From a virus: a DNA stretch of 24,252 nt. The notes under the pieces were generated by a model that saw nothing but the letters and a program-made list of their open reading frames with translations, ran no database searches and was not told where the DNA came from. Both the position numbers and the translations under genes were made by a program. The stretch is from positions 1 through 24,252 of the IMG/VR virus record IMGVR_UViG_3300008050_005587; one strand, given 5' to 3'. This document shows positions 159 through 24,252 of the stretch, in pieces; the stretch's first letter is position 1, and every line of letters starts with the position of its first letter.

Positions 159-166
159 TATTTATA
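159..166 (-). promoter_or_regulatory. T4-type late promoter TATAAATA
   Basis: The minus strand reads TATAAATA exactly, the consensus recognised by the T4 gp55 late sigma factor with gp33 and the gp45 clamp. It lies 19 bases upstream of the ATG at 140, followed by AGGAG, so transcription would start just before the ribosome-binding site. The octamer overlaps the TAA stop codon of the glycosyltransferase upstream. It is the only perfect match in a sensible position in this window. Confidence 0.8.
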
Positions 167-4011: not shown

Positions 4012-4217
4012 TCTTTATACCTTCCTTTTTTAATTTTATCCCAAATTCTTTCATAAAAATAATAAACGATAAACCCAGTTAAATTCATTAATAAAGCGTT
4101 GTGTATCGGTTCATCTGATATCATTAAAACCAAAATTAAATAACTATTCAGGATTGCAACCAATCTCCAAACTATAGTTTTAGTAATACTTCTAGATTTT
4201 GTTTCTTTAAAAGTCAT
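4008..4217 (-). CDS. DUF2061 small membrane protein
   Basis: A 69-aa protein matching the DUF2061 pattern: an N-terminal ETKSRSITKTIVWR stretch, a first membrane helix at about residues 13-33, a second at about 39-55, and a C-terminal YYFYERIWDKI with the conserved aromatic-glutamate-arginine. Its function is unknown in general; the family also occurs near or fused to sulphate-activation enzymes. It is the only obvious membrane protein in the glycan island. The start TAATG shares one base with the stop of the cupin gene and AGGT lies upstream. Confidence 0.8.
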   Translation of the reverse strand: MTFKETKSRSITKTIVWRLVAILNSYLILVLMISDEPIHNALLMNLTGFIVYYFYERIWDKIKKGRYKE

Positions 4218-7240: not shown

Positions 7241-7243
7241 AAT

Positions 7244-7954: not shown

Positions 7955-7956
7955 AG

Positions 7957-9434: not shown

Positions 9435-9438
9435 TATT

Positions 9439-10239
9439 TTATTTTCCATAGACTATATCAATCCAATTTTCAAAGGGCCACTCTTCCTTAAATTCACCTA
9501 TCTCTTCTGGTCTATCAGCGTAAATTTCTCTAATTTTTTCTATATCTTCTTTTCTCATACCCTTTACATTAATCTTATCTGGGTATTGCTTCTCGCTTAC
9601 TAATTCTACCTTCTTTACACAGTGTCTTCCTTTAGTACCTAAAATCTTATAACCGTCACCTTCTGCCATCTGACCACCTATCAACTCCCAGTCATGTGGA
9701 CTCCAGTTGGGTTTCAGGTTTTTTAAAAAGTATTCTCTATTCCAGATGGAAAATTGACCAGTTATTCTATAAATAAATTCCTGTGTAGACCTCTGTGCTA
9801 GTTCTATAATTTCAAAATCATCGAATTTCTTGTAGGTTGTTACATCTCTAGGATTCCTTGCGTATTGTAAAGATGGTTGCAAATCTATTCTACCAATTTT
9901 ATCTCCCATGTCACCTTTCCAGTTGGGTATGCTTTCTAAGATATAATATAACTCTCTATCTAAAGGTCTTGCTAAGCAAAAATCATCAATACCAAAGATA
10001 AAATATTCATCATCTATTGAGTTAACATATTCTAAGACATAGTTAGACCATCCTTTAGCCTTACCCACTTGTTCATCCGCCATTGATATAAATTCGAAAT
10101 TTTTAGGTAATTCGAAGTCTGGTTTACTAAAACCTAAAATCGTAACGTTGAAGTCATCACCCCAATACTTGTTAAAAAAATATGAAAAACCTTTAAGTAC
10201 AAACAAGTGTGGGTCACATGTTGGTATGATTATTCTCAC
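9439..10239 (-). CDS. Putative glycosyltransferase (GT-A-like), GTG start
   Basis: A 266-aa protein from a GTG at 10239. It opens with a strand R-I-I-I-P-T-C-D, and FIFGIDDF (80-87) is positioned like the metal-binding DxD strand of GT-A transferases. A later acidic/aromatic block (HDWELIGGQ) could be the C-terminal catalytic region. I do not recognise a numbered GT family, so the call is moderate. GTG is chosen over the ATG at 10275 because GTGA overlaps the stop of the preceding gene, GAGG lies about 10 bases upstream, and the 12 extra residues of the longer frame (rich in Arg, Cys and Trp) look like translated overlap rather than protein. Confidence 0.65.
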   Translation of the reverse strand: MRIIIPTCDPHLFVLKGFSYFFNKYWGDDFNVTILGFSKPDFELPKNFEFISMADEQVGKAKGWSNYVLEYVNSIDDEYFIFGIDDFCLARPLDRELYYILESIPNWKGDMGDKIGRIDLQPSLQYARNPRDVTTYKKFDDFEIIELAQRSTQEFIYRITGQFSIWNREYFLKNLKPNWSPHDWELIGGQMAEGDGYKILGTKGRHCVKKVELVSEKQYPDKINVKGMRKEDIEKIREIYADRPEEIGEFKEEWPFENWIDIVYGK

Positions 10240-11099
10240 CAGCCAGCACCTCTGGGTCCTTCTGCTAGGGTACACGCTCTGTCTTCTGGTAAAGGTTGGT
10301 CTAATGGAAATGGGAATCCTCTGGGGAAATATGGATTTGTTCTACCGTGAGGTATCTTTCTAATCAAAGACCAAGAATTGTATTCAAGACCTATAAACCC
10401 TGATTCAATTTCATCAGTCTTAACATGCCATCTGAGAAGACCGTGGTTTGAAATTTTGTTATCACGTTCGGGTGCTTCTCTCGGAGAAATCTCCCTCAGG
10501 GACATTAAGTATTTTTCATAATCACTATCTTCTGCTAGATAACTATTGATATTATCATATAGGTTACCAACTTTATCTGCGTTTTCTGAACCAGTGATAA
10601 ACCAAGGGTCATTATAACCAAAGTTAAACCTATTGTGCCACCAGTTAGATACGTAGAATACATTGGGGTTTAGATTTTCAAATTTGATGAAAGAATCATA
10701 GAAAACCATATCAAACCTTAATGCTAACACGAAATCATATTTGAAATCATTAGCATCTTCTTCTTCTTTCTTTAAACTGATACACTTATCTAAGGAATAC
10801 CACCTACTATATGTGCTTTGAAGTTTAGTCTGGATGTCTGGTGTAAAACTGTATTGAGTAGAATCTATACCATATGGGTGCTTAAATATGATTTGTTTTT
10901 CAACCAGATACTTCTTTGGATTGTATCTTTCTACCAAATCTTTCTCTGAGTCTTCACTCCAAGTGTGAAAAAATATATCCACATCATGGTCACCAAACAC
11001 GTTTTGTTTTAAACTTTCAATACCTTCTTCAAAAGAAACTGGTACACCTTTGTCGTTAAATCCCGATGCCAGTCCATGTAAACAAATTGCTATTTTCAT
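10236..11099 (-). CDS. Putative glycosyltransferase of the HTW/RxD type
   Basis: A 287-aa protein. It begins MKIAICLHG, has VDIFFHTWSED (40-50) and YDFVLALRFDMVFYD (121-135). The pattern of an initial beta strand, a V-D-x-F-x-H-T-W motif and a Y-D-x-V-x-x-x-R-x-D motif recurs in short uncharacterised sugar transferases of capsule and LPS islands and in phages. No biochemical function is known to me for this family. The ATG overlaps the TGA of the 424-aa gene (ATGA). The C-terminus (TLAEGPRGAGW) is proline- and glycine-rich and reads through the region where the next gene's ribosome-binding site lies. Confidence 0.65.
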   Translation of the reverse strand: MKIAICLHGLASGFNDKGVPVSFEEGIESLKQNVFGDHDVDIFFHTWSEDSEKDLVERYNPKKYLVEKQIIFKHPYGIDSTQYSFTPDIQTKLQSTYSRWYSLDKCISLKKEEEDANDFKYDFVLALRFDMVFYDSFIKFENLNPNVFYVSNWWHNRFNFGYNDPWFITGSENADKVGNLYDNINSYLAEDSDYEKYLMSLREISPREAPERDNKISNHGLLRWHVKTDEIESGFIGLEYNSWSLIRKIPHGRTNPYFPRGFPFPLDQPLPEDRACTLAEGPRGAGW

Positions 11100-12370
11100 A
11101 CTTTTAACATACCTTCCATTAATTCAATATCTCTAATATCTTTGGGTTCTGAACGCTTGTTCTTTAATTCGTGAATAACACCTATGCTTGCAAACTTAAC
11201 ACCGTTAAAATAAAAGTGGTTATTATCATTATACATGATTTCATCTTTACCAATGGTATAATTACCGATTTCTTTATTGTGTTCGTTTATTAAGGGATTA
11301 CCTTGTATTGGTTTAACATTACCACCATAAAGGTAGTCTAGGTCTTGTCCCTCTCTCATACCGAACGCTGACATAACTGAACTGGCAGTTATACAAACAT
11401 CATCACTATCGTATTTATTTTTAGCCATCCAATCTTTCAATTCTCCCACAAGACGATTATATTTAGGATAATCCTGAATAACCGCATTGTTTAAATAATG
11501 GAGGCTATTATTATTAAAAAATACCCTTGCTAGTCTTAATGTTTCTTCGTGGGTGTCGTTAATATGAACAGAGTGATTGCTAATACCATAGACATCTCTG
11601 ATTAGTCTTTTCACCTCATGTGCTTTTTCTACTGAGTCGAATTCCGCTAGGAAAGCATAAACTGGACTTTCGGGTGATGGGGAGAAGCAATAATCTTCCT
11701 TAAGACGGAATCCACTAAAACCATTGTTAAAATCACCACCCCAAGGTTCACCATCATATATCTGTCTAATTAAGTTTAAGGGGCCCTGATTATAAAGTAT
11801 TGCACCTTTTTCATAAACAACATCTCCATTTTCCATTATGATTTTTCTAATATCACCGAGATTGTTTTTAACTGTGGCAGCAGGGAATAGAGTTACAATG
11901 AATGAGTTTTCTTTCAATTTAGCATATTCTAAAGCGATTGAATCGCAGATTTTATTATCTAAACCAAGATTTCTAAAAAAATAAGATGTACAATCTTCTT
12001 GTCCTGCTTTAGGGTCATCTGTTTCTTCAAAATTTATATTTTTGTTATTAAGAATGCAACTTGCTAATCTATGTGCACCGTTTAAGAGATAACCGTCTTT
12101 GTTAATTGGTACTGGGGGTAATTTAGGATTGTAACCTCCTTCTCTAATGGAGTCGTTGATTTTAAAAAATTCTTTAACATAAGATTCTAGGTCATTCTTT
12201 TTTGGGTTGTCATATTCTTTAAAACCATTCCATACTTTAATATGTTCTGAATAAATGTTCAAACCGAAAGTGGTCTGATAACCTCTTTGTGCATGTTTTA
12301 ACATTAAGTGCTTGGCTGCGACATCAAATCTGTTGAATTTTAATAAATTTTTGGGGTTAATATATGTCAT
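11096..12370 (-). CDS. Two-domain protein: ParB/Srx-like N-terminus and nucleotidyltransferase-like C-terminus
   Basis: A 424-aa protein. Residues 88-104 (VPINKDGYLLNGAHRLA) match the ParB/sulfiredoxin nuclease-fold motif, in which a glycine-histidine-arginine loop binds nucleotide. Residues 264-277 (NHSVHINDTHEET) form a second conserved-looking block. Residues 325-348 (VCITASSVMSAFGMREGQDLDYL) resemble the G-S ... D-x-D signature of the polymerase-beta nucleotidyltransferase fold, with the usual GS replaced by ASS. The domain reading is mine and untested. The position between glycosyltransferases suggests attachment or activation of a phosphorylated group on the glycan. No clear ribosome-binding site precedes the ATG. 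Confidence 0.6.
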   Translation of the reverse strand: MTYINPKNLLKFNRFDVAAKHLMLKHAQRGYQTTFGLNIYSEHIKVWNGFKEYDNPKKNDLESYVKEFFKINDSIREGGYNPKLPPVPINKDGYLLNGAHRLASCILNNKNINFEETDDPKAGQEDCTSYFFRNLGLDNKICDSIALEYAKLKENSFIVTLFPAATVKNNLGDIRKIIMENGDVVYEKGAILYNQGPLNLIRQIYDGEPWGGDFNNGFSGFRLKEDYCFSPSPESPVYAFLAEFDSVEKAHEVKRLIRDVYGISNHSVHINDTHEETLRLARVFFNNNSLHYLNNAVIQDYPKYNRLVGELKDWMAKNKYDSDDVCITASSVMSAFGMREGQDLDYLYGGNVKPIQGNPLINEHNKEIGNYTIGKDEIMYNDNNHFYFNGVKFASIGVIHELKNKRSEPKDIRDIELMEGMLKV

Positions 12371-12373
12371 AAT

Positions 12374-13030
12374 TTATAGCAGTGGGTCTTTAATACGTTG
12401 TCCCGATTGATTAAAAATCGTAAGCGGAGTTTTTGTTAAGTTTTCCCATTTATTTGCACTATCTCTTTCATCTGCTTGATAAAAATAAGGTTTATGCGGT
12501 GCTACGACGTAGTTTTTTGTTTGTAAAAAAGCACAACCCAAATCAAAAGGGGTGTTGTGGTTGTATACTATATCTTTTGCTGTTTCAGACACAGCCTTTC
12601 TGTAACTATCCGTTAAATATAAAATAGCATGAGTTGCAAAAACTTTTCCAATTCTAGCAAATCCATCACCGATGTCTACTGCTAGATAACGTCCATCACC
12701 GTGGGATGTCCCTAGATAAACAGCATCTGTGTTATCTGGAATTTCTAATATTGGGTTGAAATTTTCTGTAATCTTAGCATCATCTTCTAAAATTAAAAGA
12801 GGTAATTCGTTGTCCTCGTTATCTAAAATATCAATATGGGACTGTGCACACCCTCTGTAGTGTTTTATCGTTTTGTCTGCACCCTCATGTGGCTCTATGA
12901 CTCTAGCAGACAACCTCTCATGATTTTTAAGTCCAATATCTTCGAACTGTTTGACCATCGCATCAGCATTATGCTTATCTTTGTCTAAATTAATCCAACA
13001 ACATCTTACATCACGAATATCAATTTTCAT
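12374..13030 (-). CDS. GT25-like glycosyltransferase (LPS biosynthesis type)
   Basis: A 218-aa protein. CCWINLDKDKHN at 10-21 corresponds to the V-I-N-L-x-R-x-x-x-R start of family GT25, GCAQSHIDIL at 60-69 to its G-C-x-x-S-H motif, and LLILEDDA at 78-85 to the DxD-type metal site. GT25 enzymes (LgtB-like) transfer galactose in LPS outer core synthesis, but donor and acceptor here are not known. This is the first gene of the glycan island, starting 15 bases after regA with AAAAGG upstream. No promoter or terminator is visible in that gap, so the island is probably read from transcripts passing through regA. Confidence 0.8.
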   Translation of the reverse strand: MKIDIRDVRCCWINLDKDKHNADAMVKQFEDIGLKNHERLSARVIEPHEGADKTIKHYRGCAQSHIDILDNEDNELPLLILEDDAKITENFNPILEIPDNTDAVYLGTSHGDGRYLAVDIGDGFARIGKVFATHAILYLTDSYRKAVSETAKDIVYNHNTPFDLGCAFLQTKNYVVAPHKPYFYQADERDSANKWENLTKTPLTIFNQSGQRIKDPLL

Positions 13031-13045
13031 AACAAAAAACCTTTT

Positions 13046-13453
13046 TTATTTTTTAACGCCTATATGGTATTTGGGTATAAGTTCCCAGTCTGATTTATCT
13101 CTATGAGAGATAATTTTTATTTGACCTATTGATGCAATAGGGTCTTCAGTTTTATTTTTATCCACTATATTAACCAGTTCCCATTCTTCTAAAAGGTTTA
13201 CAATAGTATTTCTTCTTGCGATGTCGTTATCGGACATATCGCTTGGTAAACCATCCAACCCAAATAATTCTTTAAAATGAACAATATAATATTTTCCTCT
13301 TTTATGAAGAATATGACATGATTGGTAAAGTTTCTTTTCTTTCCTTGAAGAAACACCAATTCTTGTTAATGTTTCTTTGACCTTAAGAAAGTCTTCGTCG
13401 GTTGTTAGTGTCACTTCAATTAAGTCATCAACAGTGACTTTTGTGTTTTCCAT
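13046..13453 (-). CDS. regA: RegA translational repressor of early genes
   Basis: A 135-aa protein with extended similarity to T4 RegA: FLKVKETLTRIG, LYQSCHIL, GKYYIVHFKE and the C-terminal IPKYHIG all match. About 10 residues are added at the N-terminus compared with T4 (122 aa). RegA binds AU-rich sequence around the start codons of many early phage mRNAs, including its own, and blocks ribosome binding. As in T4 it lies just after gene 62. Its ribosome-binding site (GGAG, 7 bases before ATG) is inside the 3' arm of the hairpin at 13460-13504, so its own translation is probably controlled by RNA structure. Confidence 0.97.
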   Translation of the reverse strand: MENTKVTVDDLIEVTLTTDEDFLKVKETLTRIGVSSRKEKKLYQSCHILHKRGKYYIVHFKELFGLDGLPSDMSDNDIARRNTIVNLLEEWELVNIVDKNKTEDPIASIGQIKIISHRDKSDWELIPKYHIGVKK

Positions 13454-13459
13454 TATTTA

Positions 13460-13504
13460 ACTCCATTATATATGGCTTATTTACACCTTTATATATAATG
13501 GAGT
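13460..13504 (-). promoter_or_regulatory. RNA hairpin sequestering the regA ribosome-binding site
   Basis: A perfect 14-bp inverted repeat: ACTCCATTATATAT at 13504-13491 (minus strand) and ATATATAATGGAGT at 13473-13460, with a 17-base loop. The 3' arm contains GGAG, the Shine-Dalgarno for regA, 7 bases before its ATG. The 5' arm begins five bases after the last base of the gp62 stop codon, within reach of a ribosome terminating there. There is no T-run, so a terminator is unlikely. The stem would hide the regA start unless gp62 is being translated. Confidence 0.8.
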
Positions 13505-13509
13505 CGTCA

Positions 13510-13896
13510 TTAAGAACCACCCGTGTTTAATTCCTCTTTAATATTATTTATTTGTTCTTTACTAAGTACGTCAAGTGCTTCATAGGCTTTCGAATTTGAA
13601 TACCCAAAATAGTCTTTAATGGCCTGCAAATCAGCAGGGGCTGTTTTCTTCATCCACTTACTAAATCTTTTTCTTTTCCTGACGGAGCGTTGTAGATAGT
13701 CAAAATGCATTCTCTTGTCTATACCACAAAAGAAATTCATATTGTTGGATTGGATTATTGAGTCTGGAAAATAAGAAACCCCTTTATTAATAATAAAAGG
13801 GCTATATCTCTTGAGTACAAACTCATAATCATCATCCAGTTTGTCCATAGGAACTTTGGTATAATTAATGGCGTTTAAGTAATCACTTAATTTCAT
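13510..13896 (-). CDS. 62: Clamp loader small subunit gp62
   Basis: A 128-aa protein recognised by YSPFIINKGVSYFPDSI (31-47), RMHFDYLQRSVRKRKRFSKW (62-81) and the C-terminal YFGYSNSKAYEALDVLSKEQ, all characteristic of gp62 of T4-like phages. It is shorter than T4 gp62 (187 aa), as in other marine T4-likes as far as I recall. One copy joins four gp44 subunits to load gp45 onto primer-template DNA. The ATG overlaps the TGA of the groES-like gene (ATGA) and no ribosome-binding site is visible, so it probably depends on translational coupling to groES rather than directly to gene 44. Confidence 0.93.
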   Translation of the reverse strand: MKLSDYLNAINYTKVPMDKLDDDYEFVLKRYSPFIINKGVSYFPDSIIQSNNMNFFCGIDKRMHFDYLQRSVRKRKRFSKWMKKTAPADLQAIKDYFGYSNSKAYEALDVLSKEQINNIKEELNTGGS

Positions 13897-14156
13897 GTAG
13901 TTATAATTGCTAGTACAGAAGATTCAGGTACAATAACCACTTCACCATAAGCACCAAGTCCTTGTCTACTCCATAAAATTGTATCACCGACTTTGATTTC
14001 AGATTTTACATCAGGACCAACACCTGCTACAATAACTACTTTTGGTTTAGATTTATCGTCTACGGCACTACCTGTTATAATAATACCAGACTCAGTGGTT
14101 TTTTCTTTTTCTATTTCGCTTATAATTGTTAAATTATCATTGATTGGTCTAATCAT
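13893..14156 (-). CDS. GroES-like co-chaperonin (gp31 analogue)
   Basis: An 87-aa protein. IRPINDNLTI at the N-terminus matches the bacterial GroES I-R-P-L-x-D-R-V-x-V, TESGIIITGSAVDDKSKP (21-38) corresponds to the mobile loop (GGIVLTGSA) that docks on GroEL, then GVGPDVKSEIKVGDTILW and the C-terminal ESSVLAII. The hydrophobic GroEL-binding triad is III instead of IVL. It is closer to bacterial GroES than to T4 gp31 (111 aa). It would form a heptameric lid on host GroEL and help fold phage proteins such as the major capsid protein. It lies between the two clamp loader genes with ATGA overlaps on both sides. Confidence 0.9.
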   Translation of the reverse strand: MIRPINDNLTIISEIEKEKTTESGIIITGSAVDDKSKPKVVIVAGVGPDVKSEIKVGDTILWSRQGLGAYGEVVIVPESSVLAIITT

Positions 14157-15106
14157 TTAAAGGTACACTCCATCATTAATTCTGTACAACATGCGGTCAT
14201 GTTTATTTCTTGGTCTGCTACGAAGGCCGCCTTATATTGGTATTCTGCAACTATAAGAATTGCGGCTGGGATGCTTTGTGGTTCAAGACTTTCTGATAAA
14301 TTATCGTAAATCTTTTTAAAAATTTGCACTTGGTCATTGTCTAAATTGTCAACCACCCATTTTCTAACTTCTTGAAAGTTTTTGTTTTTCATTGATGTCA
14401 TTAAGTCGTTGATTTTAACATTTTCGACATCAGCAAGAACACCAACATCAATTGTACCTGCAATGGAATATCGTTGAAGTTCATTAATTACCCTTCTAAA
14501 ATCGGGTACGTAGCGAACAATTAATTTTGCTATAACTTTATCTTCATAAGGAACATGTTCATCGTTTAATATATGCTTTACTCTCTCCATAAACTGTGCA
14601 GACATTATATTCATATCCTTTTTACCAAACTGGAAATGGATACAAGTGCATCTTGAATGAATAGGTTCAATAATTCTGTTTTTGAAATTACATGTGAGGA
14701 TGAATCTGCAGTTATTAGCAAATTCCTCAATGAATCCACGAAGTGCAGGTTGCATAGACTGTGCATTAGCATAATCAAATTCGTCCAAAATCACGACCTT
14801 TTTGGACCCTGTCAAGGACACAGTGCTAGCAAAACTACGGATTCTTGTTCTCAGAGTGTCAATGTTACCATCTTCAGAGCAATTAATCATCATCCAGTCT
14901 GTTTCAAGTTCACTACATAAAGCCTTCGCAACTGTAGTCTTACCGCAACCTGCACTTCCTGATAAGAGGAGATTCTGGGATTCACCAGATTTTACCATAT
15001 CTTTGAATGTTTTTTTCAGTCTTTCAGGAAGAATGCATTCATCAATGGTAGTTGGTCGATATTTTTCGACCCACAGATATTGTTTGTTTTCTGTCATTGT
15101 TATCAT
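14153..15106 (-). CDS. 44: Clamp loader large subunit gp44 (AAA+ ATPase)
   Basis: A 317-aa AAA+ protein (T4 gp44 is 319 aa): LWVEKYRP (11-18), Walker A GSAGCGKTT (50-58), Walker B VVILDEFD (104-111), sensor 1 LTCNF (137-141) and the arginine-finger SRC motif (151-153), all typical of clamp loader ATPase subunits. With gp62 it opens and loads the gp45 clamp for replication and, through gp45, supports late transcription. The start ATG shares bases with the stop of the DUF4406 gene (TAATG). A second in-frame ATG lies three codons downstream and cannot be excluded. Confidence 0.97.
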   Translation of the reverse strand: MITMTENKQYLWVEKYRPTTIDECILPERLKKTFKDMVKSGESQNLLLSGSAGCGKTTVAKALCSELETDWMMINCSEDGNIDTLRTRIRSFASTVSLTGSKKVVILDEFDYANAQSMQPALRGFIEEFANNCRFILTCNFKNRIIEPIHSRCTCIHFQFGKKDMNIMSAQFMERVKHILNDEHVPYEDKVIAKLIVRYVPDFRRVINELQRYSIAGTIDVGVLADVENVKINDLMTSMKNKNFQEVRKWVVDNLDNDQVQIFKKIYDNLSESLEPQSIPAAILIVAEYQYKAAFVADQEINMTACCTELMMECTFK

Positions 15107-15498
15107 TATAATTCTTCGGCAATAATCCTGTCAATAGTGTTTTCATAGAGAATCGTTAGACCAATGGAACAAGATAGGTAAAATTCTGCACAAGCACCTT
15201 GACTCATTTGCCACCCTTCTAACATATAGATGGCATCGCAACTATCACATATTGCATCTAAATCACGCTTCATAATCTTTCTATTTACATCTCTGTGTCT
15301 AGAATTGCTGTCTGGGTCAAACTCGTCTGGTTCGCACTGTAACCCTTGAGTTTCTTTAGAATTTTCATCTAGTGTAGCAGGATTAACCACATTCCATCCC
15401 AACTTTGACATCATTTTTTCTGCTCTATCAAATGCTTCATAATTCCAATTGGGTTTTCCCCTCATGGGGCCTGCTATGTATATTGTTTTATTACGCAT
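15106..15498 (-). CDS. DUF4406 protein (nucleoside deoxyribosyltransferase-like fold)
   Basis: A 130-aa protein. IYIAGPMRGKPNWNYEAF (6-23) is the DUF4406 hallmark, followed by VVNPA and by a C-terminal CDAIYMLEGWQMSQGACAE, in which the glutamate region parallels the catalytic site of nucleoside 2-deoxyribosyltransferases and related nucleotide-processing enzymes. No member's reaction is known to me; a role in nucleotide salvage or nucleotide signalling is inference. The ATG at 15498 overlaps the gp45 stop (ATGCGTAA); the 15 residues of the longer frame are translated gp45 sequence. It is inserted between clamp and clamp loader genes, which are adjacent in T4. Confidence 0.8.
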   Translation of the reverse strand: MRNKTIYIAGPMRGKPNWNYEAFDRAEKMMSKLGWNVVNPATLDENSKETQGLQCEPDEFDPDSNSRHRDVNRKIMKRDLDAICDSCDAIYMLEGWQMSQGACAEFYLSCSIGLTILYENTIDRIIAEEL

Positions 15499-16180
15499 TG
15501 TATGTTGAATCCGGCTCCATAGCAACCCAATAACTAAGGTCAACTGCTTTGTTATTAAACTTTGCTACGCTGTTTTTACAAATTTCTACATTATAATCAC
15601 CAGACAGCATTTTCATATTTTCAACTTTAAATAAAAATGAAAAATCTGCATCTTCTGCGTTATCACCAACTTCGAATGTCCAACTATTTGATGAAGGGTC
15701 TTTCCTATCATGAACAGTCAGGTTGATTTTATCACCTTCAGAGGAGATTTTAAGGTCTGGTAGTTGAAGTACGCCTGCTGCCCGTTGGATTTCTTTAAAA
15801 TCTTCTTCCTTAATTTCACATTGAACAACTGCTTCAGGCATCTTCAATTCTTTATTAACTGTTGTTAACAATTTTGGTTCTGAATAATAATATACGACTG
15901 TAGCACCGTTTTCACCTTCGATAACTACGTTTTTTTGGTTAAACTCAAAGGTTGGTGATTCGAATAATGATACAGTACCCAAGAATTTATTTAAATCCCA
16001 GATTCCGAATTCGATATCAAAAGATTCTTCTACAGTTGCTTCCGCTAGAACATTCTTATAATTTGATATGGTCTTGATTTTATTACCAGGCTTAACCAAT
16101 ATATTAGAATTGATAGAGGCGAAGTTCTTCAATAACTCTATTGTTTGTTTAGATATTTTTAGTTTTGTTGCTATAGACAT
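15491..16180 (-). CDS. 45: Sliding clamp gp45
   Basis: A 229-aa protein (T4 gp45 is 228 aa) with TIELLKNFASINSNILVKPG near the N-terminus, FDIEFGIWDLNKFLGTVSLF in the first domain, NMKMLSGDYNV and the C-terminal WVAMEPDST, all matching T4 gp45. It forms the trimeric ring that tethers DNA polymerase and activates late transcription with gp33 and gp55. It has its own predicted promoter (16207-16235) giving a leader of about 20 bases, with GGAG five bases before the ATG. This is the best expression signal in the window, suiting a highly expressed protein. Confidence 0.97.
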   Translation of the reverse strand: MSIATKLKISKQTIELLKNFASINSNILVKPGNKIKTISNYKNVLAEATVEESFDIEFGIWDLNKFLGTVSLFESPTFEFNQKNVVIEGENGATVVYYYSEPKLLTTVNKELKMPEAVVQCEIKEEDFKEIQRAAGVLQLPDLKISSEGDKINLTVHDRKDPSSNSWTFEVGDNAEDADFSFLFKVENMKMLSGDYNVEICKNSVAKFNNKAVDLSYWVAMEPDSTYNA

Positions 16181-16206
16181 TTTTACTCCATGTTGTTTGT
16201 TTAACC

Positions 16207-16235
16207 ATTATAATGTATTGGCTAAAATCAGTCAA
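16207..16235 (-). promoter_or_regulatory. Sigma70-like promoter for gp45
   Basis: On the minus strand TTGACT (16235-16230), a 17-base spacer, then TATAAT (16212-16207). The first part of the spacer, GATTTTAGCC, is shared with two other promoters in the window. The predicted start is near 16200, 20 bases before the gp45 ATG. The -35 box contains the TGA stop codon of the 60-aa gene. Confidence 0.85.
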
Positions 16236-16414
16236 TTATTAAATTTTTCAAAATTCTCAGAGAATTCGATATCATCACCGTATTCTTTGGTAAATTGGTT
16301 TGTTCGGTGTCTGTTATTTCTAGTGTTTCTCCTCTTATTTTTCTTAGACCTTTTATTGGCCAAATCACCATCACTAACATTTTCGTTGTTGGTTTTTTTC
16401 TCTTTTTTAGACAT
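16232..16414 (-). CDS. Small basic protein of unknown function
   Basis: A 60-aa protein I do not recognise. The first two thirds are dominated by Lys, Arg and Asn (SKKEKK, KRSKKNKRRNTRNNRHR), probably disordered and able to bind nucleic acid; the last third is acidic and aromatic (YGDDIEFSENFEKFNN). It sits directly before gp45, where T4 has the RNA polymerase-binding protein gene rpbA, but it is half that length and shows no similarity I can see. AGG lies 7 bases before the ATG. The compact spacing (8 bases after RNase H) and the clean stop in the next promoter support a real gene. A tether to DNA, RNA polymerase or the clamp is speculation. Confidence 0.6.
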   Translation of the reverse strand: MSKKEKKTNNENVSDGDLANKRSKKNKRRNTRNNRHRTNQFTKEYGDDIEFSENFEKFNN

Positions 16415-16422
16415 AATTCTAC

Positions 16423-17310
16423 CTACACTAAAAACTCAGTCAAATCTCCTAGTCTGTTTGAAATTAAATATTCCATTTGATTATTTTTATTCATTTGGTG
16501 TCTTGCTACTTCCTTATAGTAAGCATCCGTAATTAATTTAACCTTGTCTTTTGGAATACAACCAAGGTCTATTAGATTTTTATTTCTAAACCAATTCCTT
16601 CTAAATTCAGAATTTTCTTGTCTGAATTTTCTGCCCTTTACCTCTTCAAGAATACTATTATATCTCTTGGATGACATGATAGTTTGTTTTTTGTCTTTAT
16701 TAATTAAACAATCATCATCCGACAATACGTTTGGTATACCATCAGACGAATCACCTCTGATAATATGGTCAACTAGAAACGATACTGGGTCTTCGCACAC
16801 AATAAAATCCTTGTTATTAGGGCTATATTGTACGACATTTTTGATTCTTTGTAGTTGTTTAAAATCTTTGTCAGAAGAAACTATTAAAGTTTTGTTCTGT
16901 TGTGGGGTGAATTTGTCATCGTAGATTTCTTTAGAGATTACAGCAATAATATCGTCCGCTTCAACTGTATCTACTTGCATACTAAGAAATGGAAAATTTG
17001 TACTTATTTCTTCTCTTACTAAACTGAACAAATTATATATTTTATTCCAGTTTATATTATCGTTTTTTGTTTTCTTTTTCCTACTGGCCTTATATTGTGG
17101 AAACTGGTCGGTTCTCCAGTAATTACCAGAGTCATAGCAAAGAATCATTTTATCACCATATTCACCTTTAAACCGATTATAGTAGTAAAGTACCCCTTTT
17201 AAAACTGAATATCTAATATCTTTTAATGTGAGTTCTTCGCTATTAAAATTTTTACCTTTTGTAGCGAACAAATTTGAAATCATGATTTGGTTTGTGTCTA
17301 AAAGTATCAT
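16423..17310 (-). CDS. rnh: RNase H, FEN1-like 5'-3' exonuclease
   Basis: A 295-aa protein (T4 RNase H is 305 aa) with the complete metal-binding set of the FEN family: LLDTN (D5), LCYDSGNYWR (D60), the helical-arch start FPQYKASRKKK (70-80), VEADD (E117, D119, D120), SSDKDF (D147, D149) and GDSSDGIPN (D187, D190). It removes RNA primers and flap DNA from Okazaki fragments, working with gp32 and the clamp. The ATG follows the preceding stop by two bases (TAAGGATG). All catalytic residues are intact. Confidence 0.95.
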   Translation of the reverse strand: MILLDTNQIMISNLFATKGKNFNSEELTLKDIRYSVLKGVLYYYNRFKGEYGDKMILCYDSGNYWRTDQFPQYKASRKKKTKNDNINWNKIYNLFSLVREEISTNFPFLSMQVDTVEADDIIAVISKEIYDDKFTPQQNKTLIVSSDKDFKQLQRIKNVVQYSPNNKDFIVCEDPVSFLVDHIIRGDSSDGIPNVLSDDDCLINKDKKQTIMSSKRYNSILEEVKGRKFRQENSEFRRNWFRNKNLIDLGCIPKDKVKLITDAYYKEVARHQMNKNNQMEYLISNRLGDLTEFLV

Positions 17311-17312
17311 CC

Positions 17313-18431
17313 TTAAAATATCCTAACTATAATGCAGTTTTTGTTTAGTCTTTCCCTAACTGGTTTTTCCACGGTTTTTATATCTTTAATGTGTTGTACC
17401 ACAAATTTTTTTGTTAATCTAACTTTACCATTAACCATGTGCATAGTATGCTTTGGATTCCTCAATTTTTTAACCAATGATTTCTTTTTATCGAATCCTG
17501 TAATAGAAGCACCCTTAACTGACAATCCTTTGCTGTCTGCTATGTACATGTAAATCAACCTGCTTTGAACGTTATATACAAACAACGCTGTAGCACCTAT
17601 AATATCTTTGGGGTCTTCAGAAATTAAATTTAACTCGTCGTATTTTTCTAGGTGAGGCAGTTTTTTAACCATCATATTTGGTGTTGTAGATTTTTTTCTC
17701 TTTTTCTTACCTTTTTTGGTGAAAGTTCTTTTATTGGAGTATTTTTTAGCGACCTCTACTATATCACCAACAAATTCTATTAATCTGGTATGATATCTCT
17801 TTTTAAGATAATCATATGCTTCAACTAGTTGCTCATCTTCCCCCTCTAGGGCTAGTTTTAACTCATTAAGAACTGGATTTAGTTGGTTCAAAATTTCAAC
17901 GGCAAACTCTGGTTTTATGTTTTTAGTTTTAAAATAACTCTCAGCATTAAACCATTCTACTTTTTTGGTTTTAGGATAGTTTATTAGCCTATCCACTTCA
18001 GAATTAATTTTATGGATGTATTCATTTAATTCATTGTTAAATTTGGTCTTGGGGTTAACTTTAACTTTACTAAGAGAGGTTTTTGCTGCCTGCACAGACC
18101 GTTTTCTAGAAAGAACAGTGTTCCTTTTTATTTCACCAAGACCTTCATTAATAATCTCTTTAACCAGTTCGATAGGACAACCCTTTTCTAAAATTCTACA
18201 TGCAGAACCTACTTTTTCATAGTTGCTTCTATTACCATTGCTGTAATTTTTGGCTGATTTTTTGTCCATATTGTTTTTAACGTAATTCAAAGTCCATCTT
18301 TTTAGTTGCTTGGGTGTAGCATAAACTCTGTACCAGTATAAACATGAAACAACCTCAAAGGGTGCATCTTTTTTGGTTATTTTTGTCCAATCCCTGTCAG
18401 GCTCTTTTGCAATTGATACTTGTTTACTCAT
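17313..18431 (-). CDS. Unrecognised basic phage protein
   Basis: A 372-aa protein I cannot assign. The N-terminal third has SCLYWYRVYATPKQLKRWTL (29-48), a W/Y-rich helical segment. The middle is predicted helical (residues 130-215), followed by a strongly basic stretch TKKGKKKRKKS around 243-253. The C-terminal third looks beta-rich (ATALFVYNVQSRLIYMYIAD, then VNGKVRLTKKFV). The composition suggests a nucleic-acid-binding protein. It has its own predicted promoter, whose start would fall at or next to the ATG, and no ribosome-binding site, so the mRNA may be leaderless. Its place between the methyltransferase and RNase H suggests a role in DNA metabolism, which is inference. Confidence 0.7.
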   Translation of the reverse strand: MSKQVSIAKEPDRDWTKITKKDAPFEVVSCLYWYRVYATPKQLKRWTLNYVKNNMDKKSAKNYSNGNRSNYEKVGSACRILEKGCPIELVKEIINEGLGEIKRNTVLSRKRSVQAAKTSLSKVKVNPKTKFNNELNEYIHKINSEVDRLINYPKTKKVEWFNAESYFKTKNIKPEFAVEILNQLNPVLNELKLALEGEDEQLVEAYDYLKKRYHTRLIEFVGDIVEVAKKYSNKRTFTKKGKKKRKKSTTPNMMVKKLPHLEKYDELNLISEDPKDIIGATALFVYNVQSRLIYMYIADSKGLSVKGASITGFDKKKSLVKKLRNPKHTMHMVNGKVRLTKKFVVQHIKDIKTVEKPVRERLNKNCIIVRIF

Positions 18432-18437
18432 ATTTGT

Positions 18438-18466
18438 ATTATATTCTAAAGGCTAAATTCAGTCAA
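18438..18466 (-). promoter_or_regulatory. Sigma70-like promoter for the 372-aa gene
   Basis: On the minus strand TTGACT (18466-18461), a 17-base spacer beginning GAATTTAGCC, then TATAAT (18443-18438). It closely matches the gp45 promoter. The -35 box contains the TGA stop of the methyltransferase gene. The start predicted seven bases after the -10 box is at about 18431, the A of the ATG. Confidence 0.85.
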
Positions 18467-20055
18467 GATGGTTTTTTAAAGACAAAAACTGGTTCGTATT
18501 TAAGATATTTACCGTTTACTCTACAATAATTTTTGCACATGGGTACACCGTTTTCATCCAAACGATTTTGCCCAGGCATCAATTCCATCGCCATTTTGAG
18601 TGTATAGCAATATTCCATACCAAGAGATTCTAATATGTCCCTTGAGTCTTGCTCTAGAGGTAAAAATTGTTTTTTAATTAAAAGGTCAGCGATGTTCCAC
18701 AGCAAATATCTATCTGGTTTTAAATATTCAACACAAGTTTCTAGTGTTGGTGCTAGAAATCCATGTCGCCATGCGTCATATGATTGTCCGAACTTTTTAT
18801 ATGATTGAGTTTCGTCTTCGCTATACGCCTCTCTGTTGAAATAAGGTGGTGAAGTAAAGATAAGGTCGATTTTTCCTTTATATTTTTTGAAGTCGTGTTT
18901 GAGGTGGATGTCTTCAGACCCTTCTCTAAAAAGATGGTAAGTATTCGTTTCGGAAAATATAGGATTTCCACGATAAGTTTTGGTATTGTAAAAATCTGCG
19001 AGAGAAGCATACTTGCTGTAATTACTGTCATCGTTAAAATTGTCAGTATTGGGGTCAGTACCAATATAGTGAATCCTACGGTCATCCCTAACGGCCATAG
19101 CACCGAGTATGCGACCGCCCCAGCCAGCAGATGGGTCATATATGTTGATAATCTCTTGGTCTTTGAGGTTTTCAGTGAATCTCTCATATAAGTATTTAGC
19201 AGTCATCGATGGGTAATTAACGGCCACCTGTATATATCCGATTCTAAAGGAAGCAAACCCTCGTGGAAAAATTTTTTTATCTTTTTTGTAAACACGAATA
19301 TTATATACCATATTATCGGGCATTTTATCAATGTCAAATGTTGAGTGATTACGATATTCTAACCATCCCTTTTCTTTGTATTCCTTAACTTGCTCCCTGC
19401 TCAGATGCAAGATGTCAGATTGTTGGACTTGATAATATCCACTGTTTACACCCTCTCTCATCTTTGTTTGTTCAAGCATAAAATCATAACCCTTGAAAAT
19501 CTTGGGGCTGTTATGAAACGCATCCATCCATTCTTCACCATTGCTTACGCTTACCACTGAGTATTTGTCATCGTTACATAATGCTGATTTCGCATGCTCG
19601 TAGAGAGAATCCCTTCGGAAGTGACGCATTGATGCCTTGACCATTCTCTCTAGAAACCTATCTTCTGCAAATAAGTCATAAATTGAATAACCAGTATCTT
19701 TTTCTGTGTAGTTGATGCGAGTCTTCATCATGTTACTAAACCATTGGTCTGCTTCTCCACCAACCCTTGATTTGTTGATAATAACGTCGTTATCGATGTT
19801 TGATAATTCGTCAGTAAAGGTGAATTCGTGGGTGGGAAATTCAGCCATCTTATTGAATTGCTCAACAAGTGCTTCCTCATTTTTACCAATTCGTGGTGGA
19901 CAACCATATAAATCCCAAGACTCTTTTACGGTTTTACGCATTTTAATAACCCAACTTCTAAACTCATCTGGGGTCATGTTAGCAAGGTCTTGATAATAAC
20001 AATTCATGTCTGAATTGATTACATGGTTGTTTCTCTCATAAAAATCTTTATTCAT
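18463..20055 (-). CDS. Putative SPPY-type DNA amino-methyltransferase
   Basis: A 530-aa protein from ATG at 20055. The C-terminal part has the SAM-binding motif IYDPSAGWGGR (305-315, the D-P-F-x-G-x-G-T equivalent), an acidic motif HYIGTDPN, and catalytic TSPPYF (401-406) as in N4-cytosine and some N6-adenine methyltransferases, followed by a motif around LKPDRYLLWNIADL. The first 300 residues match nothing I know and may be a target-recognition or partner domain. No restriction enzyme is adjacent, so protection of phage DNA from host defence or marking of replication DNA is more likely than an R-M system. ATG overlaps the gp46 stop (ATGAATAA) and has no clear ribosome-binding site; the longer frame from 20136 lies inside gene 46. 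Confidence 0.75.
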   Translation of the reverse strand: MNKDFYERNNHVINSDMNCYYQDLANMTPDEFRSWVIKMRKTVKESWDLYGCPPRIGKNEEALVEQFNKMAEFPTHEFTFTDELSNIDNDVIINKSRVGGEADQWFSNMMKTRINYTEKDTGYSIYDLFAEDRFLERMVKASMRHFRRDSLYEHAKSALCNDDKYSVVSVSNGEEWMDAFHNSPKIFKGYDFMLEQTKMREGVNSGYYQVQQSDILHLSREQVKEYKEKGWLEYRNHSTFDIDKMPDNMVYNIRVYKKDKKIFPRGFASFRIGYIQVAVNYPSMTAKYLYERFTENLKDQEIINIYDPSAGWGGRILGAMAVRDDRRIHYIGTDPNTDNFNDDSNYSKYASLADFYNTKTYRGNPIFSETNTYHLFREGSEDIHLKHDFKKYKGKIDLIFTSPPYFNREAYSEDETQSYKKFGQSYDAWRHGFLAPTLETCVEYLKPDRYLLWNIADLLIKKQFLPLEQDSRDILESLGMEYCYTLKMAMELMPGQNRLDENGVPMCKNYCRVNGKYLKYEPVFVFKKPS

Positions 20056-21805
20056 TGTCGAGTTTGTGCATATTGAATCTAATTTCACTGAAATTTCCTT
20101 TCTTAACAAAATGTAAATTATTTTGGAATTTGTCAACTAATTGGTCTGCCTTATGTGTAATTACAAAGACATTCGCTTTATTACCAAGACTGTTCAATAT
20201 TTTTAAAAATTCCTCTGTGCCAACCACATCAAGACTAGAATCAAAAACCTCGTCTAACAGCAAGAGATTACAATTAACACTGTTTTTAAGCCTTGCTATT
20301 TCTCTCCAAGCAAGTAAAAGAGAGAGGTCTATTCTCAATCTTTCACCTTCACTAAAATTGAAATAAGTGAAGTCATCCCTATATCTACTTTTAATTGTTT
20401 CATCGAAGTTCTCGTCTAATGTAAACTGACAAAAAAACCCCATAGAGGACAAATACTGATTAATCAACTTGTTCATTATTGGTAAATAGTAACCGATTAT
20501 TTTAGATTTAATACCCGTATCTTTCAATAGAGAACTTACAACCTCAAGATTCTCCCTAAAATCCACCATTTCTCTCCTGTCTGAATCTAAAATACTGTGT
20601 TCTGATTCCAGTTTTACTAGAGATTCTCTTTCTGTTTGTAAGTCTTCTTTGTCTTCTGTTATTTCTTTAATGTTGTCATTTATTTTGGTTATATACCTAT
20701 TACAAACTGATATATTATTATTGGACTCTGATATTTTATCCTCGATTACTCTCACATCTTTCAACGTAGAATTTACTTTGCTTAGCAACTCACCTGTATC
20801 ATCTATGGTTTTGCTAATTTGGTCTACTGCATCTTCCAACTCTTTTATTTTGATGTTCTTTGTATCAATCTTATCCTTTTTTATCTCATCATCTATGTTT
20901 TGGTCACACACTGGACATGAGTTGTTATCCTCATAAAAATTTATATCCTTCTTACTCTTTTTTATATTGAATATAAGTTGTTTTTCTATAGATTCTGCTT
21001 TCAGGAGTTTAGAAGAAAGAGAATTTTCATCCCCAATTTCTTTCATAAATTCGTCAATTTGATTTTGGTATTCTTTTATATTTTTTTCTAAATCTTCAAT
21101 TTGACTGTTGGTTGTATCCAGTTCTTCTTTGTAACCTTGCACAGATTCTTTAGATTTCTCTTCCATTTTGTTTATTAGGTTTTTATGACCGTCTATCTTT
21201 GATTTGATTACATTGATTTGATTAACCACATCCGATAGTTTGGTTTTATTCTCTGAAACTCTAGACCTTAGCAAGTTATTCATCACAGAAAATATATTAA
21301 TATCTAATAAATCTTCAACGATGTTTCGTCTGTCTTTAGCAGATAATTTCATAAACGGTGTATAATTTGAAGAACCTAAAATAACAATCTGACAAAATGC
21401 TTTATATGACATTTTGAGTATTTGTTCTTCTAGAATTTTTTGGTAGTCTAATACAGTTGCTTCCTGAGGAACTAGTACACCATCTTTGTAAATTTCAAAA
21501 ATCTTTGGTTTTAAACCACGAATTACTTTATATTCGTGGTTGTTGGTATAAAATTCTATTTCTACCACACAGTCTTTTTCATTTACACTATTTACTGTAT
21601 TAGCAATTTTTCTTCTACCGCTAAGTGATATTCCTCTAAAAGAATTACCAAATAAGGAAAAAGTTAAAGCATCCAACATTGTGGATTTTCCTGCTCCATT
21701 ATCACCAGATATTAGAGTGGTATTGTATTTATCTAGATATACCTCTATAGGTACATTACCAGTGGACAGGAAATTCTTCCACGATAATTTTTTAAATATT
21801 AACAT
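20048..21805 (-). CDS. 46: Recombination endonuclease subunit gp46 (Rad50/SbcC-like ATPase)
   Basis: A 585-aa SMC-like ATPase (T4 gp46 is 560 aa): Walker A SGDNGAGKST (33-42), Q-loop region QIVILGSS (139-146), long coiled coil from about 180 to 430 broken by a zinc hook CPVC (297-300), signature FSEGERLRIDLSLLLAW (484-500) and Walker B LLLLDEVFD (514-522). With gp47 it resects DNA ends for recombination-dependent replication and host DNA breakdown. Unlike T4, genes 46 and 47 are separated here by purB. It has its own promoter with a predicted leader of only about three bases and no ribosome-binding site. Confidence 0.97.
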   Translation of the reverse strand: MLIFKKLSWKNFLSTGNVPIEVYLDKYNTTLISGDNGAGKSTMLDALTFSLFGNSFRGISLSGRRKIANTVNSVNEKDCVVEIEFYTNNHEYKVIRGLKPKIFEIYKDGVLVPQEATVLDYQKILEEQILKMSYKAFCQIVILGSSNYTPFMKLSAKDRRNIVEDLLDINIFSVMNNLLRSRVSENKTKLSDVVNQINVIKSKIDGHKNLINKMEEKSKESVQGYKEELDTTNSQIEDLEKNIKEYQNQIDEFMKEIGDENSLSSKLLKAESIEKQLIFNIKKSKKDINFYEDNNSCPVCDQNIDDEIKKDKIDTKNIKIKELEDAVDQISKTIDDTGELLSKVNSTLKDVRVIEDKISESNNNISVCNRYITKINDNIKEITEDKEDLQTERESLVKLESEHSILDSDRREMVDFRENLEVVSSLLKDTGIKSKIIGYYLPIMNKLINQYLSSMGFFCQFTLDENFDETIKSRYRDDFTYFNFSEGERLRIDLSLLLAWREIARLKNSVNCNLLLLDEVFDSSLDVVGTEEFLKILNSLGNKANVFVITHKADQLVDKFQNNLHFVKKGNFSEIRFNMHKLDNE

Positions 21806-21814
21806 CTTGAATAC

Positions 21815-21843
21815 ATTATATCAGATAGGCTCATTGCAATCAA
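21815..21843 (-). promoter_or_regulatory. Sigma70-like promoter for gp46
   Basis: On the minus strand TTGATT (21843-21838), a 17-base spacer beginning GCAATGAGCC, then TATAAT (21820-21815). It shares TTGA-Y-TG and the AGCC block with the gp45 and 372-aa promoters, at identical spacing. The -35 box contains the TGA stop of purB. The predicted start near 21808 leaves about three bases before the gp46 ATG. Confidence 0.8.
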
Positions 21844-23252
21844 TTATAAAACATGCTAAGGTATAGTTGCCGTATTGGCTCAACTATGTTCTGGATATAC
21901 CATTTAGTTTGTTCTTCTGCTAGTCCAGTATATTTTAAATCTAACATGTCTTTAACATTAATGTCTTTGAAAATCTTTTTTCTAGAAATTCTATATACTA
22001 AGTTGTTAGTTTTGCCGGCATTAACACGACCTTTTGCATCTATTGCTAATTTTCTAATTTCCTCATGCGCCACTTGTCTATCTACACCGTTCTTTTTAAC
22101 TGCTTCAATCACAACATTTTCGGTAATGAAAAAAGGTAGTTCTTCTTTATAATGTTTGTGTACCATATCGGTATTTACTACCATATTGTTTACTACTTCA
22201 AACACTGAATCTAAAATTTCATCTGCTATAATAAAAACTTCTGGTAGTAATAATCTCTTGTTTGCTGAGTCATCCAAAGTTCTTTCCATCCATTGATTGG
22301 CTGCGGTATGATATGGATTTTGGACGAGGGATATTAAATACCGTGATAATGAACAAATTTTCTCACAGATGATTGGGTTTTGTTTGTATGCCATTGCAGA
22401 AGACCCAACTTGGTTATTTAAGTCAAAACCTTCTGATATTTCCCTTTTACTGCTTAAGATGCGAATGTCGTTCGCAAATTTGCTGGCTGCAGATGCAATC
22501 AAACAAACAGATGAAATTAGTGTTGCATCGTTAATTCTTGGATTTGTTTGTCCAGTAATTTTTACTAGATTAGATTGACCAAATCCGAGTTTTGATGCAA
22601 TCATTTCATCCATGGTTTGCACCTTTTCAGCATCACCATCAAACAAACTTAAAAATGATGCTTGTGTTCCTGTAGTACCTTTTGCACCTCTAAACTTGAT
22701 TTTATCTAATCTAAAACCCAAATCTTCTATTGTAGTAACAAAATCTTGAATCCACATTGTTGTTCTTTTTCCAACTGTAGTTGGTTGTGCGGGTTGCAAA
22801 TGAGTTAGACCAACTGTTGGTAAACCTGCATTAGTTAGAGAAAAATTTGCTAGACTATCTATCACTAATGCAACTTTTATTATAAGTTTAGTCAATGAAT
22901 CCCTAACCATAATAGATTCTGCATTATCGACTACAAATTGGCTAGTGGCCCCAAGATGAATAATGGGTTCAGCATCAGTTGCAACTGCACCAAATGCATG
23001 AATGTTTGCTACTACATCATGTTTCGTTTTGGATTCATAATTTTGAATAGCAGAGAAATCTATTTTAGTTACTGCATCCTTCATTTCTTTGATTTGGTTA
23101 TCAGTAATGATGTCAATACCGAGTTCTTTTTGCGTTTCTGCTAAAACACACCATAAATGCCTCCAAGTCATTATTTTGTTTTGTTCTGACCAAATGTATT
23201 TAATATCATCTGACCCATATCGGTTACTTAAGGGTGAAACATATTCGTTCAT
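21840..23252 (-). CDS. purB: Adenylosuccinate lyase (auxiliary metabolic gene)
   Basis: A 470-aa fumarase/aspartase-superfamily enzyme. Catalytic and binding blocks: KHDVVANIHAF (77-87), HLGATSQ (99-105), GLTHLQPAQPTTVGKR with the catalytic His151 (148-163), FRGAKGTTGTQASFL (187-201) and the signature loop GSSAMAYKQNP (283-293). The FRG-x-KGTTGTQASF block and length match the human-type adenylosuccinate lyase more than the E. coli or Bacillus forms. It splits SAICAR to AICAR and adenylosuccinate to AMP, in de novo purine synthesis. In the signature the usual Pro after GSSAM is Ala. AAGG lies 9 bases before the ATG. It sits between genes 47 and 46, whose products form one complex. Confidence 0.93.
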   Translation of the reverse strand: MNEYVSPLSNRYGSDDIKYIWSEQNKIMTWRHLWCVLAETQKELGIDIITDNQIKEMKDAVTKIDFSAIQNYESKTKHDVVANIHAFGAVATDAEPIIHLGATSQFVVDNAESIMVRDSLTKLIIKVALVIDSLANFSLTNAGLPTVGLTHLQPAQPTTVGKRTTMWIQDFVTTIEDLGFRLDKIKFRGAKGTTGTQASFLSLFDGDAEKVQTMDEMIASKLGFGQSNLVKITGQTNPRINDATLISSVCLIASAASKFANDIRILSSKREISEGFDLNNQVGSSAMAYKQNPIICEKICSLSRYLISLVQNPYHTAANQWMERTLDDSANKRLLLPEVFIIADEILDSVFEVVNNMVVNTDMVHKHYKEELPFFITENVVIEAVKKNGVDRQVAHEEIRKLAIDAKGRVNAGKTNNLVYRISRKKIFKDINVKDMLDLKYTGLAEEQTKWYIQNIVEPIRQLYLSMFYN

Positions 23253-23283
23253 TAATTGTTACCTTTTTGTTTGTTTTGGTTAA

Positions 23284-24252
23284 TCATACTGTTAAAGATT
23301 CCATATAAAGTTCTTTAATCAGTTGTTTTACTATATTGGAATCTTTAATGTCTTCAAGGTTATCCACTTCTTCATAGATTAATTCAAGTGTGGATTTGGT
23401 AATGTCTGCTTTTTGGTTGTCTATACTGTTAATTATTGTATTATCTACATCTTCAACTATACTTAAGTCATAAACACCGCTATTATATAAAGAATCTATA
23501 ACTCTATCTAAAATATAAGGTTTTTCTTTATTTATGACATAAATTTTTACATATGTATCCCTATATTTGGAGTGGTTTTCAGTGATAAATTTACTATAAT
23601 CATATTTGGTGTCATCATAACTTAACGTGTAAAATAACTTCTGGTCATTTTTAATAAACTCTAGTTCTCTAGTGTCGGTGTCTAAAATCCAAAAACCTTT
23701 GGGTTCATTTACATCTGAAAATGTAATCTGATAAGGTGCACCCAAATATATTATATTACCTTTTTCTTGTTTACAGTGAAAATGACCACTTAAAACCTGT
23801 TCAAATCTGCTAAAATTTTTGGGGCTCATCCCACCGTCGTATTTAATACCACGAAGCACTTCATATCCATCCAATTCAAGATGACCAACCAACCATTGTG
23901 CACTTGTTGAGTTAACAAAATCCATGCTGTTTTTATAATTTTCATTGTTTATCCATGGTAATAATGCTATTTCCATACCATCAAATTCTAAAGTAACTGG
24001 ATTTTCATAAAGTTTGAAATTGTCATATCTGTCTGAAAATAACTCTTTTATAGAATTCAAGTCATTGGTATTTTTATAATAGGTATCGTGGTTACCCAAT
24101 ATACAATGAACTTTAATATCCATATCTTTCAAAGGTTGCATAAAATTGTTTCTAACTTTAGAAAGAGTGTTGAAGTTTATATACTTTCTTCTATCTAACA
24201 AATCTCCCGCATGGATTACAGTATCTATGTCATATTTTTTTAAAGTGGGAAA
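23284..24252 (-). CDS. 47: Recombination nuclease subunit gp47 (Mre11/SbcD-like), 5' end beyond window
   Basis: The frame is open to the right edge; the visible 322 residues lack only the N-terminal start and the first metal-binding motif. Seen are IDTVIHAGDLLDRR (motif II), LGNHDTYY (motif III with catalytic His), VGHLELDG and SGHFHCKQ (motif V) of the calcineurin-like phosphoesterase fold, then a beta-rich C-terminal capping region. It is the Mn-dependent nuclease partner of gp46. Reading inward from the edge, the codons before the LLDRR motif are FPTLKKYDIDTVIHAGD, so an apparent TTG start at 24201 is internal and should not be used. Confidence 0.95.
   Translation of the reverse strand, partial: FPTLKKYDIDTVIHAGDLLDRRKYINFNTLSKVRNNFMQPLKDMDIKVHCILGNHDTYYKNTNDLNSIKELFSDRYDNFKLYENPVTLEFDGMEIALLPWINNENYKNSMDFVNSTSAQWLVGHLELDGYEVLRGIKYDGGMSPKNFSRFEQVLSGHFHCKQEKGNIIYLGAPYQITFSDVNEPKGFWILDTDTRELEFIKNDQKLFYTLSYDDTKYDYSKFITENHSKYRDTYVKIYVINKEKPYILDRVIDSLYNSGVYDLSIVEDVDNTIINSIDNQKADITKSTLELIYEEVDNLEDIKDSNIVKQLIKELYMESLTV

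Follow-up and report, generated by a model that had tools for sequence, protein, structure and literature searches.

Can the spacer of a phage promoter, often treated as a matter of length only, hold a phage-specific signal? This question is raised by a virus record of 24,252 bases, analysed over its whole length and called the window here, in which three minus-strand promoters share not only their -35 and -10 boxes but also the tetramer AGCC at one place in the spacer. A positive answer would also bear on the timing of replication-gene expression in T4-like phages that lack MotA, a question that a box of defined sequence and constant register opens to testing. According to passages in PMC1524935, MotA is apparently conserved only in T4, RB69 and 44RR among the phages compared, while parts of PMC9004378 describe Melnitz and other marine T4-like phages as having no identifiable middle promoters, which may be too divergent to detect.

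Our preferred reading, to which we give a rough probability of 0.45, is that these sites belong to a sigma70 promoter class peculiar to one clade of T4-like phages, with the consensus TTGAC-N7-AGCC-N4-TGR-TATAAT, and that AGCC would be read by a factor with polymerase bound.

Three promoters in a replication-gene cluster

Between 13 and 24 kb the window holds, in order, a gp47-like gene, phrog_1703, gp46, a methyltransferase-like gene, phrog_11903, an exonuclease, gp45, a nucleoside-transferase-like gene, gp44, gp62 and regA, and this replication-gene order resembles that of T4. The name gp47 is our assumption, in keeping with the place in the gene order, and the phrog_1703 ORF is one that we take to be adenylosuccinate-lyase-like. 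For gp46, the nearest named phages among the matches listed are cyanophages at about 44% identity; for positions 12000-24252 the phage collection holds no close match at the DNA level. Downstream of the replication genes, the minus strand carries a putative block of sugar-nucleotide and glycosyltransferase-like genes (162-12370), named from their translations.

The letters and coordinates that an earlier note had given for the three sites are correct on re-reading (Table 1). As expected of sigma70-type promoters, in which 16-18 bp separate the two hexamers, each has a TTGACA-like and a TATAAT-like box before a gene, and the ORFs directly downstream are gp45, phrog_11903 and gp46. The shared pattern TTGAYT-N17-TATAAT occurs three times in the window versus 0.08 expected from dinucleotide shuffles, and the shared spacer block, searched as AGCC-N7-TATAAT, three times versus 0.09, at the identical three places. 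All three spacers also have G at their first and T at their fifth position, and an extended -10 TG is found at the 21843 site only. A general promoter scan of 12000-24252 returned 64 sites versus 56.3 expected (sd 7.6); since this is no clear excess, the signal is that of a promoter family and not of promoter-likeness.

Table 1 Coordinates of the promoters and genes of the window and of promoters in the related record G001
Feature	Record	Position	Strand	Details
Whole window	IMGVR_UViG_3300008050_005587			24,252-base virus record
gp45 promoter	window	16207..16235	(-)	-35 TTGACT 16235-16230; AGCC 16223-16220; -10 TATAAT 16212-16207
phrog_11903 promoter	window	18438..18466	(-)	-35 TTGACT 18466-18461; AGCC 18454-18451; -10 18443-18438
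gp46 promoter	window	21815..21843	(-)	-35 TTGATT 21843-21838; AGCC 21831-21828; extended -10 TGA 21823-21821; -10 21820-21815
gp45 sliding clamp (phrog_223)	window	15491..16180	(-)	
phrog_11903 protein	window	17313..18431	(-)	no assigned function
gp46 recombination nuclease subunit (phrog_77)	window	20048..21805	(-)	
60-aa ORF	window	16232..16414	(-)	TGA stop within -35 box of gp45 promoter
DNA-methyltransferase-like ORF, 557 aa	window	18463..20136	(-)	start uncertain; TGA stop within -35 box of phrog_11903 promoter
phrog_1703 ORF, 470 aa	window	21840..23252	(-)	TGA stop within -35 box of gp46 promoter
147-aa protein promoter	G001	22884	+	AGCC
92-aa protein promoter	G001	24884	+	AGCC
purA-like gene promoter	G001	26340	+	AGCC
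gp32 promoter	G001	32093	+	AGCC
uvsY promoter	G001	76924	+	AGCC
gp55 promoter	G001	79583		variant GTCC
gp46 promoter	G001	82779	+	AGCC
phrog_11903 promoter	G001	86165	+	AGCC
gp45 promoter	G001	88400		variant CGCC
dUTPase promoter	G001	105160	+	AGCC
gp43 promoter	G001	106158	+	AGCC
Site before 61-aa ORF	G001	122834	+	AGCC; poor -35
Promoter of ORF at record end	G001	125864	+	AGCC

A further site, a perfect TTGACA-N18-TATAAT at 15134-15105, stands before gp44 and overlaps the end of the preceding ORF. It has TGCC at the AGCC register and no counterpart in the four relatives compared.

A box in fixed register with the -10

A search with gp45 led to 52 loci, and three related records were scanned whole: G001 (126,210 bases, gp45 94%) as well as G002 and G003 (136 kb; gp45 71 and 73%). 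AGCC-N7-TAYAAT is found 11 times in G001 versus 0.36 expected (binomial p ~2e-13), five times in G002 versus 0.43 (four with a strong -35), three times in the window versus 0.08, and not at all in G003. The earlier note had proposed such a search of related phages, with an absence of further matches to count against the family; the relatives hold many more. When all tetramers are ranked at the N7 register, whether by enrichment or by p, AGCC comes first in each of G001, G002 and the window; in G001 it occurs 0-2 times at every other spacing from 0 to 20 (20 spacings). The G001 sites all lie on the plus strand (11/11), and 10 of the 11 have a TTGA box in register.

Counting the -10 box as -12 to -7, AGCC occupies -23 to -20, usually accompanied by TTGAC and an extended -10 (TGR). 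Its register follows the -10, because the distance between the two is unchanged in the uvsY promoter of locus L089, which has an 18-bp spacer, and because AGCC is present despite a poor -35 before dut in L151 (TTGTAA) and at 122834 in G001 (TTTTAA). The -35 ending TTGA-Y-T, which had been proposed as a family trait, is true of the three window sites, but Y-T is not kept in relatives.

Strong TTGANN-N17-TAYAAT sites carry AGCC in 3/3 cases in the window, 10/17 in G001, 4/13 in G002 and 0/7 in G003. Unselected 17-bp phage promoters have it at the box position in 1/145, which rules out a general phage preference, and have CC at its last two places in 4/145. Pooling window, G001 and G002 (17/33) against these 145 gives a Fisher p of 8e-14, for a pool that omits G003 and two samples drawn by different patterns, the unselected one having required TTGACA, TG and TATAAT. 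In a wrong-spacing control (15-bp spacer), AGCC was in the spacer of 0/110.

Conservation, spread and the genes served

How well is the box kept where the genes are shared? Orthologous promoters of gp45 have AGCC in four loci (L008, L011, L013, L014) and CGCC in L010/G001; those of phrog_11903 have AGCC in G001 and G002, and it is absent from G003; those of gp46 have it in G001, L089 and L096, and none was seen in the other loci compared. The gp55 promoters show the variants GTCC, TGCC or TACC, or none (G002, G003). The gp55 variants and the CGCC of the G001 gp45 promoter count against our preferred reading.

For a closer comparison, 36 orthologous promoters were picked by hand; the set omits G003, L626, L631, the 18-bp L089 site and the gp55, purA, p147, p415 and cobT promoters, and keeps one non-carrier (G002 hth92) and the phrog_11903 row of G004. 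The conserved parts are TTGAC, AGCC, TGR and TATAAT with little information between, the T and the G of the extended -10 each being present in 33/36. Pairwise identity is 0.93-0.97 in AGCC versus 0.26-0.45 in the remaining spacer bases, those of TG excepted, a contrast within carriers, because the set is hand-picked and non-carrying promoters are omitted. For 25 promoters that did not come from the AGCC scan the values are 0.86-0.97 and 0.30-0.57. The degenerate -35 before phrog_11903 in G004 was not counted as evidence, because the AGCC there lies in coding sequence.

The earlier note had suggested setting AGCC against its flanking spacer bases, and among carriers AGCC was indeed kept while the neighbouring bases drifted to low identity. 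This drift speaks against the notion that AGCC was merely inherited by common descent of the promoters and has little function, as does the recurrence of the box before many unrelated genes. Descent would fit the finding that all carriers in a gp32 tree fall within one group, but we consider this explanation very improbable.

In that tree of 28 rows, chosen among 80 fetched loci and others, AGCC is found in 8/11 rows of one group (SH-aLRT 99) and in 0/17 rows outside it; it was the AGCC scan that first led to three of the eight carriers (L087, L122, L198). With a midpoint root there are three changes, fitting one gain and two losses, and the 3/11 rows of the group without AGCC count against the preferred reading. 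Best sites before gp32, picked by score only as in the uvsY/dut/gp55 locus comparison, have AGCC in 3/65 loci scored; among twelve loci picked from those fetched by protein, it is in 6/12 strong sites. G003 is nested in the carrier group, and its lack of AGCC at all seven strong sites implies that the box was lost from many promoters together. A search for TTGAC-N7-AGCC-N4-TGN-TATAAT in viral contigs gave at least 120 stretches, including the T4-like clade and an unrelated family, and a scan with phrog_11903 gave one relative only. Judged from these comparisons, AGCC is a real, conserved and clade-limited element of the predicted promoters. A literature search found no paper on an AGCC spacer box, an absence that is not thereby proven.

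In G003 (loci L074-L080), the promoters of gp55, phrog_11903, gp32 and uvsY (100, 7303, 85856 and 133562), which are without AGCC, share AGAGA directly after TTGACN.

The label 'early', which the earlier note had given to the family, is unproven, as many of the genes served have T4 orthologues that are preceded by middle promoters. The class precedes replication and recombination genes, namely gp32, uvsY, gp43, gp45, gp46 and dut, and the mapped T4 middle promoters named in passages of PMC2988021 are those of genes 32, 43, 45, 46, 55 and uvsY.

What reads the box?

The earlier note had envisaged either a phage-specific element or a phage activator with MotA- or AsiA-like logic. The former stands, as an element beyond the hexamers that is repeated in relatives; MotA and AsiA as named are not supported. 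Homologues of both were detected in 0/3 related records (which may be incomplete, the window being a 24-kb fragment) by searches that detected the T4 control, and neither the window sites nor the 36-promoter profile shows the MotA box, a TGCTT that stands where the -35 would be and has its centre near -30. The lack of homologues, together with the position of the box at -23 to -20 next to a -35 that is retained, argues against this pair as the reader. A GcrA-type activator was rejected as well, with no homologue in the three records and the Caulobacter control detected. The three window sites also differ from the T4 late promoter, where TATAAATA replaces the -10 and there is no -35.

Parallels with T4 are partial. 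In passages of PMC2988021 its middle promoters, before 32, 43, 45, 46, uvsY and 55, have a strong -10, often a TGn, and 5' of these a short box, much as here; however, the T4 box (a/t)3TGCTTtA takes the place of the -35 with its centre at -30, whereas AGCC leaves the -35 where it is. T4 early promoters, in the same source, are likewise recognised by host sigma70 through a strong -35, TGn and -10, and they too have extra consensus positions; the AGCC box and the gene set set our class apart, the extra T4 positions being compared by description only. With the marine T4-like phages of PMC9004378 (Melnitz, cyanophages) our phages have in common that no MotA-type promoters are identified, and differ in the candidate box found here, Melnitz being set beside it by description.

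In the preferred reading, host RNA polymerase would start about 7 bases past the -10 box of a predicted class that stands before replication, recombination and nucleotide genes. With polymerase bound, and only then, a small factor of phage or, less likely, host origin would read AGCC, sitting on the spacer and raising initiation. In this way a middle-type gene set might be under separate control, with neither MotA nor AsiA. Going one step further, and tentatively, the clade may possess its own middle-mode system, in which a phage factor unrelated to MotA would read the spacer AGCC while docked on the intact sigma70 holoenzyme, its sites having been lost together in G003. Two points count against a factor: four bases are short for a DNA-binding protein, and most sites, with a full -35 and -10, could by their sequence function unaided.

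A 92-aa predicted winged-helix protein is a candidate factor by fold and distribution, and no more. Its predicted structure has the winged-helix order of elements (mean pLDDT 80.7), with a winged-helix Pfam match below cut-off and weak structural matches (best E 0.034). Relatives are found in G002, G003, L086 and L144 and, more distantly, in L679 outside the clade; among 50,697 phage records there is no match at E 0.01. That it occurs in G003, which lacks the box, and in L679 counts against it as a candidate unless the specificity changed.

Repressors classically act between the -35 and -10 boxes, and AGCC might accordingly be part of an operator for a phage or host repressor that shuts the genes off later in infection or in a carrier state. 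With only four bases conserved and no second half-site in the profile, and with a fixed register to the -10 that would be more typical of contact with bound polymerase, we regard an operator as improbable.

A different possibility is that host RNA polymerase itself reads the spacer, these phages being tuned to the polymerase or sigma factor of their own host. According to parts of PMC4496709, the beta' zipper contacts a stretch from -24 to -18 termed the Z-element, within which AGCC lies, and T4 early promoters have extra consensus regions too (passages of PMC2988021); a -35 and mostly an extended -10 are present, and a shared host could account for the limit to one clade. Yet the same parts of PMC4496709 describe the Z-element as a core-enzyme contact without known sequence specificity, while AGCC is confined to a clade, and passages in PMC5101437 put the zipper contact at -17/-18. 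The rarity of AGCC, and of CC at its last two places, among the 145 unselected phage promoters also argues against direct reading, as may a bacterial-genome scan: the matches listed among at least 120 stretches are mostly Clostridia by 80 titles, with mixed spacers and no window-like family, and the 80 titled rows include no proteobacterium by title, several titles naming no group. Promoters of another class in the same genomes do without AGCC. On balance, direct reading seems rather unlikely.

Other promoter classes nearby

These other promoters form a class with TTGACAGAA and GCATGG or AGCCATGG at the end, found before genes such as small ORFs, a phrog_459 peptidase-family gene (presumably CobT-like) and a phrog_249 ATPase gene. 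They are strong promoters without AGCC at the place of the box, in the same genomes as the AGCC class, so polymerase does not need AGCC. In a TTGACAG(A/T)AG...AGCCATGG class, AGCC is three bases nearer to the -10 (G002 110212, 112483 and 114279; G003 27305 and 77455), and its occurrence at this shifted place in G002 counts against the preferred reading.

Another family, by eye approximately TTGACCAAAAATNNCCAATTTTGCTATAAT, has A/T-rich arms around CC at the same place in the spacer. It was seen in nine loci (L091, L098, L101, L103, L117, L135, L146, L147 and L163; records G011-G018 and G021), with up to 15 TTGAC-N15-TGN-TATAAT matches per record, and a T4-type clamp was detected in 0/9 of these records.

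Stop codons and leaderless starts

Is each promoter built on a stop codon, as the earlier note had it? At all three window sites the TGA of the -35 box does close the upstream ORF, but the rule is not general. At a cut of 40 open codons it applies to 16/35 listed promoters over four genomes, 7/14 in G001, set against a baseline of 6% in G001 and 10% in G002 for all TTGA. A similar ORF ending is visible 5' of gp45 in L008-L010, and the DNA-methyltransferase-like orthologue has the same TTGA ending in G001, G002 and G003; the apparent stop of the G001 phrog_1703 gene is a TAA just 5' of the -35. Genes packed closely enough to take their stop codon from the -35 suffice as an explanation: the overlap is common, not built in.

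At their other end some of these promoters reach almost into the gene. Before phrog_11903, the gap from -10 to ATG is 6 nt in the window (18438-18431), G001, G002 and G003, and 5 in G004, and the gp43 promoter has the same 6-base gap in G001, L151 and L197 (loci L506-L624 were covered too). The ATG would thus lie at or beside +1, which predicts a leaderless mRNA. Among phage promoters, many of them at sites without an ORF within 60 bases, exactly 6 bases is the commonest distance, found in 8/144 unselected promoters and 11/103 AGCC sites, versus 2/115 wrong-spacing sites.
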